Source: Owenia fusiformis
Lineage: Eukaryota; Annelida; Polychaeta; Sabellida; Oweniidae
DNA length: 64,000 nt
Reading direction: 5' to 3'
NCBI GenBank assembly: GCA_903813345.2
Contig: CAIIXF020000004.1
Location: 12,362,196-12,426,195 of the forward strand
A program made the translations under genes and the position numbers. Positions 24,380 to 63,790 of this stretch are shown piece by piece. The notes under the pieces were generated by a model. That model searched no databases, was not told the origin of the DNA, and saw nothing but the letters and a program-made list of their open reading frames with translations. Position 1 is the first letter of the stretch, and each line of letters opens with the position of its first letter.

Positions 24380-24920
24380 TTCAGTTAATCATTATGATAT
24401 TTCAGCTCAACTATATTTTCAGCTTAACTTAAGTATGGCAACTATGAATCTGCTTTCTTTTATTATTCAGTTGATTATCGTAATATTTCAGCTCAACTAT
24501 TTTTTCAGCTTAACCAAGTATGGCAACTATGAATCTGATTTCATTGGAAATATCAATCAATCATTATTATTCAGTTAATTATTTTTCATATTTCAGCTCA
24601 ACTATTTTTTCAGCTTAACCAAGTATGGCAACTATGAATCTTATTTCATTGGAAATATCAATCAATCTTTATTATTCAGTTAATTATTTTTATATTTCAG
24701 CTCAACTATTTTTTAGGTTAACCAAGTATGGCATCTTTGAATCTGATTTCATCGGAATATTTATCAATAATTATTATTCAATTATTCAATGAACATTATT
24801 ATCATATTTCAGCTTAACTACTGCATCAACTTAAAACATTTTTAAAAGGCAGGATATAAACACACAAATATCAATCTTGTGAAATTATTCAATTAACCAT
24901 GAATCCTTATGATATTTCAG
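24380..24920 (+). repeat. Tandem decayed copies of a TGDS acceptor
   Basis: Six acceptors of the form ATATTTCAGCT(C/T)(A/G)ACTA occur with AG ending at 24405, 24491, 24596, 24700, 24812 and the functional 24920, spaced 86-112 bp. The copy at 24812 continues into a recognisable degenerate version of the exon start (CTTAACTACTGCATCAACTT against CTTGACTACTGTGCCAGCTT), so exon as well as intron sequence was duplicated. Confidence 0.85.
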
Positions 24921-27900
24921 CTTGACTACTGTGCCAGCTTGAAGAATCTCGACCACCTTAAAGGCAAGACAAACTACAAGTTTATCCAGGCAGACATCTG
25001 CGAGTCTGATTTCATGCGCTACATCTTCCAGTCTGAAAAGATTGACACCGTTCTTCACTTTGCAGCTCAATCTCATGTCGGTAAGAAAAAAAAAATTAAC
25101 CTGGCATTTAGGCAATTTCATCTCTTAAGATTAAAAAGCATTTGTATCTTTACTTCTTGGACACCCTATATGTTTCATTTGAAACCATTTGCATAAAGAG
25201 AAATATAACAACATTTTCATCAACACAGTGCTATACATTGCAGCTCAATCTCAAGATAATGTAATTTTGACCTGACATCTATTTGTTTCACTCTGAACCA
25301 TTTGTGTAAAGGGAACAGGCCCTGTAGCCAGGATTTTTCAATGGGGGTTCATTTTCCCGAACCCCCTGGCTACAGGCATGGGGAATTATAAAAAATAAAA
25401 AATTCAAACAGTGTTGAAACAACTTGATGCATATCCCGATCCACATTCAATATCTCAGTTCTAGGATAGTCCAAAGTTAGAGCTAAATTCGCACTAGGCC
25501 TATACCCTGTTAACCACTTATTGTGCATAAAACTAGCAGCCTGAATTTGTGCATATATTTTTACAGAACAAATAAATAGAATTAGCTAAAAAAATTAAAT
25601 GTTAATTTTACCCTAACCTTGGTGATGATTCATTTTGTACTAAGGTTGAAATTGTATTTTGCATCATATATAAAGTGCATGCATTGATGTTTCAGACAAC
25701 TCATTTTGGAGTTCCCTGGACTTTACCAGAACTAATGTATATGGCACACACGTCCTTGTCAATGCTGCTTATGAGAATAAGGTCAAGAAATTCATTCATG
25801 TCAGCACGGATGAGGTGTATGGAGGAAACAGTACAGTTGTGAGTATATTGAGTAAATATAATTAGTGCCTTTAAGTTGTGAGTAAATTGAGTAAATATAA
25901 TTAGTGCCTTTAAGTTGTGAGTAAATTTAACAATTGCTTTTAAGTTGTGAGTAAATTGAGTGGACTTAACAATTGCCTTTAAATTGTGAGTAAATTGAGT
26001 AAGCTTAGCGAGTGCTTTTAAGTTGTGAGTAAATTGAGTGAACTTAACAAGTGGCTTAAGTTGTGAGTAAATTGAGTAAACTTAACAAGTGCCTTTAAGT
26101 TGTGAGTAAATTGAGAAGACTTAACAAGTGCCTTTAAGTTGTGAGTAAATTGAGTAAACTTAACAAGTGCCTTTAAGTTGTGAGTAAATTGAGTAAACTT
26201 AACAAGTGCCTTTAAGTTGTGAGTAAATTATGTAAATAAGTCAAAATATATCATAATTACTTAAACCCTTGCCAGTTTAACTCATTTTCACCCTATTTTA
26301 CACAAAACCGAATACTTGTATCTAATTGTATTTGTAAGTAACTAATTATTATAAAATAAGTAATAAAATGGTAATTACAAGATTGATTCATTATTTTCAT
26401 AATTAGATATATTTGTGCAAAACTTTTTGAACAACTCTTGTACATGGAATTAAATGAATTTTCCTAATTTAGGCTCTTGATGAGGAAGCTAAAATGAACC
26501 CAACAAATCCGTATGCAGCAAGCAAAGCCGCAGCTGAGTGTATTGTCTCGTCATATTGGGAGTCATTTAAGGTAAACTTTGGGTTCTTTCAAATTGTTGC
26601 ATCACTCTAAATACATGTAGGATCAACCTTTTTGAGTTGAATTATTATGACAATTAGGTCCACTTACTTATGAACAAATTATAGACCAAGAATCACCATT
26701 ATAATGTTATTAAGTTATACTACAGATTTTTAATACATGATGACATATGATGCTGATGATCTTCGGATCAGATTTACAGGTTTCACTGTACAAAATGCAG
26801 ACACTGAAGTATTGGAGTATGCCATCTATTTAACAATAAAAGTTTATTTTCATACATGACAATAATTTTCTTTCTTTACTTTTTAGTTTCCTGTAGTCAT
26901 CACTAGGGGCAACAATGTTTATGGACCGCATCAGTATCCAGAAAAGGTATTACACTAAATTGACATCATAAATGATACTCCACCAATTGTTAAAATTGCT
27001 AGATTCATTCAAGATTCCTCTCATGAGTTTTGAAGAAAATATTTGCATAATCAAAATAAGCTTCATACAATTAAAAACTGGGCAAGGAGGAATTATGAAA
27101 TACTCTGGAATGATTTTCTTACATTTAAAATATAAATTATATGAGGAATGTTTTTCCAAAACAGTGCTGCATATAAATCCAATTTTCTGGATCTCAAATC
27201 AAAATCAAAAATGCAATATGCTAGTATGTAAGTGTATGTTATGCCAAAACCCTGTAATTTTGAACTTACCATTCCTGGGTACCTTACCTTCCCCGCTATA
27301 ATTTGTCTCCATAAATTCTGTCATTTTGGACAAGAGGAATATTTGAGCAGATTAGTCCAAAGAGCAAGCCATGATATAATACTCATAATTTATTTTAGGT
27401 CATTCCCAAATTTATTTCCTTATTGGAGAGAGACCGAACATTGTTCATCCAAGGTTCAGGAAATGCTATCCGTAACTTCATCCATGCGACTGACGTTGCC
27501 GCAGCATTTGATACCATTCTTCACAAAGGAGAGTCTGGGCAGGTCTACAACATTGGAACTGATTTTGAAATGAGCGTCTTAGAATTAGCCAAATTTCTCA
27601 TTAAAAAGGTTTGTAAAATCAGTTTTTTATTTTCTTAAAATCGAAAACAAGCACCCATCAGTATTCCTACAACATTTGATGAAAATTCATTATAAGAAGT
27701 GCATTTTATTTAAAGCCTCGTTTTCATGTATGTATTTCCATAACAAATTGATTTAGTTTTGCAGTGTATTTCGATTTTTTACAAGTCATAATTTGTTGCA
27801 GATGAAGGGAATTACTGGAGAAGATGAGATTGCCAAGTTTCTGGAATATGTTGAAGACCGTCCCTTCAATGATTACCGCTACCCAATGGATTGTGGAAAA

Positions 27901-63627: not shown

Positions 63628-63790
63628 CTGAAAATGGAGTAAAAAGTGAGCAACTGTTTTCTTCTTGTTGCAATAGCAACTGCGAATCGAGAAAGTGAGC
63701 AATTAAACTTTCTCCATGGTGCAAATTAGAAACTGAAAATGGAAAGTGAATGGAGATGCGAATTTTCCTGATGTTGCCATAGCAAATGGA
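63628..63790 (-). repeat. Decayed copies of a GSR acceptor and exon start
   Basis: Upstream of the exon starting 63627 (minus strand TTTTCAG then TTGCTATAGCAGCAGGAAG), similar blocks begin at 63679 (CGCAG then TTGCTATTGCAACAAGAAG), 63732 and about 63785, a 52-53-bp period, progressively diverged. Confidence 0.75.

Follow-up and report, generated by a model that had tools for sequence, protein, structure and literature searches.

Tandem arrays across exon-intron junctions in GSR and a TGDS-like gene of a probable annelid, and a modest, model-dependent excess of such arrays at other loci

Tandem repeats whose units extend across the 5' or 3' boundary between an exon and its intron have been described in amphioxus, where they are called mirages. 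In the accessible portions of the two reports (PMC3087553, PMC3902484), the units are 10-160 bp long and are found in Adh3, the globin genes BflGb6 and BflGb9, PGBD5 and troponin C; many of the copies carry an AG or GT, and the real copy lies at the edge of the cluster. These arrays are presented there as harmless, with regular splicing and length instability, and an intron-gain model is proposed. Here we describe arrays of similar anatomy in a stretch of 64,000 nucleotides (C4:12362196-12426195, referred to as the window), taken from one haploid assembly of 498 Mb in 525 contigs, twelve of which measure 31.9-62.2 Mb. For Owenia fusiformis, the available part of PMC9977687 gives an assembly of 505.8 Mb with 12 chromosome-scale scaffolds and 43% repeats; the twelve large contigs agree with this and not with a lancelet karyotype of about 19 chromosomes.

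Junction-spanning arrays in GSR and the TGDS-like gene

The minus-strand gene at the right end of the window was identified as glutathione reductase (GSR) by comparison of its translation with the human enzyme (E = 2e-66). Spliced protein alignment to the window plus 19.8 kb fetched past its end gave a frame open across 12 exons without a stop. The locus is single, taking 60 of 61 protein matches; the remaining one, on C5, is 46% identical. The plus-strand gene is TGDS-like (translation against dTDP-glucose 4,6-dehydratase, E = 1.8e-78). Its exons from 24921 to 30282 are taken as reliable on the basis of spliced alignment, and no N-terminal coding exons were found with confidence upstream of 24921 (region 12000-24900). 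Predicted first exons at 12713-12722 and 19552-19631 are doubtful, as their translation does not give the expected dehydratase start. Elsewhere in the window, two overlapping long open reading frames on the minus strand (57896-59385; 288 and 214 amino acids) may be what is left of a retroelement.

The arrays are real and are striking in GSR. Its last coding exon (61422..61568, minus strand, by protein alignment) is followed directly by the stop codon (61419-61421), which lies inside an array of a 21-bp unit (61291..61432, minus strand). The acceptor of the same exon is repeated in an array of a 72-bp unit (61521..62347, minus strand; 11.5 copies, score 103), composed of 24 bp of intron end and 48 bp of exon start. 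The AG is kept in all 10 extra copies, and the real copy is the 3'-most one in the gene sense. From the reading frames, splicing to an inner acceptor would lengthen the product by 24 codons for each copy, and one upstream copy contains a stop. Exon 11 (63039..63172, minus strand, by protein alignment) has its 3' part and donor copied in an array of a 147-bp unit (62541..63131, minus strand; 3.9 copies, score 115); the unit consists of ~92 bp from the end of the exon together with intron, and here the real copy is the 5'-most. At the acceptor of exon 10 (63496..63627, minus strand, by protein alignment), decayed copies occupy 63604..63800 on the minus strand (63604-63642, 63656-63694 and 63762-63800; 67-100% identity to the real one), with a set score of 40 against 24 for the best of 500 mononucleotide shuffles.

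Beyond the window, GSR has three further cases under the strict test, at the donors of exon 2 (92-bp unit, ~35 copies), exon 4 (101-bp unit, 17 copies) and exon 6 (60-bp unit, 3 copies). The exon 2 array (L001:7212-9805, running on into L042, C4) repeats the 3' part of the exon with its donor and accounts for ~3.2 kb of intron; the acceptor of the same exon has a 6-bp contact with another array.

In the TGDS-like gene, acceptor copies (24388..24942, plus strand) precede the exon at 24921..25080 (plus strand; spliced alignment and dehydratase match). There are six 40-bp copies, spaced 86-112 bp apart and 78-88% identical to the reference copy, made up of an AT-rich intron end, TTTCAG and the first exon bases. 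The real acceptor, from which the exon starts at 24921, is the last of the six, and the set scores 48 against 26 for the best of 500 mononucleotide shuffles. Both this set and the GSR exon-10 acceptor set are old and decayed. The exon at 25696..25838 (plus strand, spliced alignment) has its donor copied in an array of a ~39-bp unit (25835..26236, plus strand; 10.6 copies) that begins 4 bp before the exon end and scores 63, if 4 bp of exon counts as enough. Donors resembling GTGAGTAAA are retained in its copies, with GT kept in 6 of 6 aligned extra copies.

A 9.3-kb array also occupies 34986-44317, with 78- and 106-bp units and a GC skew near -0.31 to -0.34. Its start on a candidate donor, pointed out in a preliminary description of this DNA, carries little weight: the last TGDS coding exon ends 4.6 kb before the array, and the GSR stop is 17 kb away. 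The same description had named six arrays in the two genes, and all six are confirmed as repeats at about the places given, with exon and intron side by side.

Both boundary types are thus copied, in GSR at the donors of exons 2, 4, 6 and 11 and the acceptors of exons 10 and 12, and in the TGDS-like gene at one of each. By the strict test, local copies contain 6 of the 22 GSR junctions and 1 of the 16 TGDS junctions (2 if 4 bp of exon suffices); 3 of the 16 depend on the doubtful first exons. The working copy is at the array edge: read in the gene sense, it is the first where donors are repeated and the last where acceptors are. Local copies cover 52% of the GSR intron positions and 11% of those in TGDS.

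We take these arrays, with a probability of about 0.7, to be mirages, that is, minisatellites in which an exon-intron junction happens to fall within the repeat unit. Slippage, template switching or break repair would first duplicate some 30-260 bp of genomic DNA in tandem, taking in an exon end with the adjoining intron, and unequal exchange and conversion would then multiply the units. The copy still attached to the rest of the exon would stay the working one, as the anatomy of last acceptors and first donors shows, and the remaining copies would be intronic passengers with usable-looking splice sites, under no detectable selection for or against them. Minisatellites abound in the introns of this genome, which allows such spare copies to build up. 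Splicing is probably unharmed despite the copies; for GSR, normal splicing in their presence is suggested by the intact frame. DNA folding was considered as a cause of slippage and rejected, as the folding of units from three stretches did not surpass that of shuffles (z = 0.02, 0.85 and -0.29).

Junctions and arrays at 52 blind loci

The preliminary description had taken so many hits on junctions to be improbable for random minisatellites, and a comparison of arrays with randomised positions was run on 52 blind loci. These were picked by dense protein-family exon hits with repeats ignored and sparse clusters excluded. Set 1 comprised 32 gene pieces (178,030 bases) from CCT, adaptin, aminoacyl-tRNA synthetase, myosin and GDP-mannose dehydratase-type genes, with 153 of the 154 listed hits falling within its loci; set 2 comprised 20 gene pieces (73,020 bases) from dynein and G-alpha genes. 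Junctions were predicted from the protein-family hits and a splice-site weight matrix, giving 198 in set 1 and 135 in set 2, among which 76 and 84, respectively, were paired predictions.

Three further repeats were observed in genes of these families. One myosin-head exon (PF00063 ~18-84) gives twelve tandem matches at C9:37986009-37994334 on the minus strand, perhaps mutually exclusive exons. In L046 (C9:7082562-7087388), three consecutive copies of a dynein AAA_6 exon (PF12774 ~56-164) are present, and in a dynein gene at L056:3841-4021 (sense coordinates) an acceptor and exon start are duplicated ~150 bp apart.

Counted base by base, junctions are depleted in local copies. Nine of 198 junctions in set 1 and 5 of 135 in set 2 (14/333 together) lie inside copies, as do 16.5% of 11,477 intron positions and 2.7% of exon positions in set 1, and 8.9% of 3,467 intron positions and 3.5% of exon positions in set 2. 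When the copies were rotated within loci, 27.1 junctions (sd 5.3) were expected inside them, against 13 of 333 seen on a 10-bp grid (P = 0.003). The copy rate climbs gradually on the way from exon into intron, without a spike at the junction (4, 9 and 8 of 198 at 20 bp in the exon, at the junction and at 20 bp in the intron). Base-wise coverage is a poor test of seeding because intron arrays are long, and a test on array counts was therefore added.

Tandem Repeats Finder (TRF) arrays numbered 64 (44 in set 1, 20 in set 2). With a seed of one unit placed at random in collapsed non-exon sequence, 3.82 arrays were expected to cross a predicted splice site and 9 did so (P = 0.0105; this and the following P values are uncorrected for the several ways of counting, and arrays within one gene are not independent). 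By set, the counts were 7/44 against 2.9 (P = 0.019) and 2/20 against 0.92 (P = 0.23). Leaving splice prediction aside, 14 of the 64 arrays ran over the edge of a protein-family hit, where chance would give 4.85 (P = 0.0001) or 6.09 (P = 0.0014), with 11/44 in set 1 (P = 0.0005) and 3/20 in set 2 (0.96 expected, P = 0.06). On inspection, the copies of these 14 arrays bear splice sites, two of the arrays including only 4 bp of exon; a stricter count requiring at least 8 bp of exon left 12/64, against 6.09 expected (P = 0.012). No array of the 64 lies wholly inside an exon.

The assumed seed length decides significance. A seed of one full untrimmed unit gave 7.33 expected crossings against the 14 seen (P = 0.009), and under the narrower three seed models pure chance yields 4.9 to 7.3 edge-crossing arrays against 14 (12 strict). 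With longer seeds the excess is gone, the expectation being 10.99 at 1.5 units (P = 0.18) and 14.66 at 2 units (P = 0.64). Junction-crossing arrays are thus about two-fold over random expectation, an excess that is modest, model-dependent and unproven. In GSR, a junction is crossed by 5 of the 8 TRF arrays, where 1.7 would be expected (P = 0.0105); these 8 do not include the 147-bp array or the decayed acceptor sets. TGDS gave 0 of 4. By number, the GSR count exceeds what local array density alone explains and so speaks against pure chance in the formation of mirages. GSR is the gene of discovery, and its count is therefore no independent evidence.

Arrays born at random could also come to be over-represented at junctions if those anchored on a needed exon end lasted longer, because no deletion may remove all of their copies. 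Such survivorship is a serious contender, to which we give somewhat less than even odds: it would yield a modest excess in counts with no spike at the junction, and the absence of arrays lying wholly within exons makes selection on exons visible. Seeding biased towards junctions is a more doubtful reading, in which some feature of exon ends (higher G+C, a nucleosome edge, R-loop or transcription-coupled breaks, or microhomology in splice motifs) makes tandem duplications begin there more often. The edge counts (14/64 and 12/64), the splice-site count (9/64) and the GSR figure all lie above expectation, as it would predict; however, the excess is lost with seeds of 1.5 or 2 units, set 2 alone is weak, TGDS contributes nothing, and no copy spike is found at the junction.

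The place of the junction within the unit likewise counts against this bias. Arrays extend between 4 and 97 bp into the exon; the exon fraction of the unit is spread evenly from 0.04 to 0.92. The relative place of the junction, for which some splice positions were read by hand, fits a uniform distribution (Kolmogorov-Smirnov P = 0.87 for 15 blind arrays and 0.89 for all 22), and only 4 of the 22 arrays start within 6 bp of a border. As the junction's place is uniform, units were not seeded exactly at borders, contrary to the preliminary description. Its more general proposal of a junction bias survives in a weak form based on counts, without a spike or a start at the exact border, and with better survival of such arrays as an alternative. 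Its argument about random minisatellites fails base by base and finds partial support in array counts (12/64 against 6.1). For the two-fold excess, survivorship or a mild seeding preference is at least as good an explanation as a junction-specific machinery.

Content of the copies

Alignment of the copies gave a GT or AG that is intact in 144 of 145 extra copies (12 arrays). The splice motif has 10 variable columns of 138, against 93 of 830 elsewhere (P = 0.18); 3 of 16 cases (the GSR exon-10 acceptor, the TGDS acceptor and one L005 array) had no copies at the cut-off and were excluded from this test. Counted per copy, the splice motif diverges less (12/1363 against 150/8819, a hand sum in which copies are not independent). 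No bias towards in-frame unit lengths was found among the 22 arrays, 10 of which have a unit divisible by three. The splice sites of spare copies are thus neither purged nor detectably preserved.

It is very improbable that the spare sites are decoys selected for tuning splicing, as had been suggested at the outset. The retention of GT or AG in nearly every extra copy would fit, but these dinucleotides would be kept in young arrays anyway, the motif columns are not significantly less variable, and units are about equally in and out of frame. An assembly artefact, a natural concern given that tandem arrays are error-prone in assemblies, is equally hard to credit: the copies differ from one another, the coding frame is intact across arrays, and many independent junctions, spread over many chromosomes, carry arrays of several ages. 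Template switching via spliced RNA or cDNA, another of the initial suggestions, can be practically dismissed, since intron sequence and the exon-intron junction itself are present in the aligned copies; exon and intron run on unbroken in them, and the source was therefore DNA or unspliced RNA.

Implications and comparison with known systems

A bolder reading is that some process tied to gene structure makes arrays arise preferentially across junctions, at about twice the per-base rate of introns. Mirages would then be a recurrent, genome-wide type of mutation outside lancelets, supplying spare splice sites and possibly raw material for new introns and exons, with hot genes such as GSR. We hold this only tentatively and think it unlikely on present counts. 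With mirages in the plainer sense favoured above, a lancelet curiosity is extended to what is probably another phylum. If a few per cent of splice junctions are touched (14/333 predicted junctions at the blind loci), annotation pipelines will put exon ends in the wrong place, and the genome offers a natural test of how the spliceosome chooses among up to 35 near-identical sites. The numerical test of junction bias can be used on any annotated long-read genome.

No description of boundary-spanning arrays in annelids was found in the open-licence literature searched, in which the amphioxus ones were found. Intronic minisatellites are known in annelids from earthworm metallothionein genes (PMC12783039); unlike the arrays here, they are placed in the first intron, and the available part of that report does not mention crossing of exon borders. 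In the Rogers model of intron gain, for which there is a potato RdRp case (PMC4974935), an AGGT-bearing exon piece undergoes tandem genomic duplication. A duplication with splice signals is common to both cases; here, in contrast, existing introns are padded at their ends and no new intron is shown.

The closest counterparts are the amphioxus mirages. As far as the accessible portions of those reports go, the arrays share with them units that hold an exon-intron boundary of a functional gene, the involvement of both donors and acceptors, the retention of GT or AG, and a real copy at the edge. They differ in that the host has 12 large chromosomes and is probably an annelid, in that up to ~35 copies occur and 6 of 22 junctions of one gene are affected, and in that they were counted over 52 blind loci and are described from genome sequence. 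The kind of array is probably one already known, that of the mirages, and the phylum is probably new.
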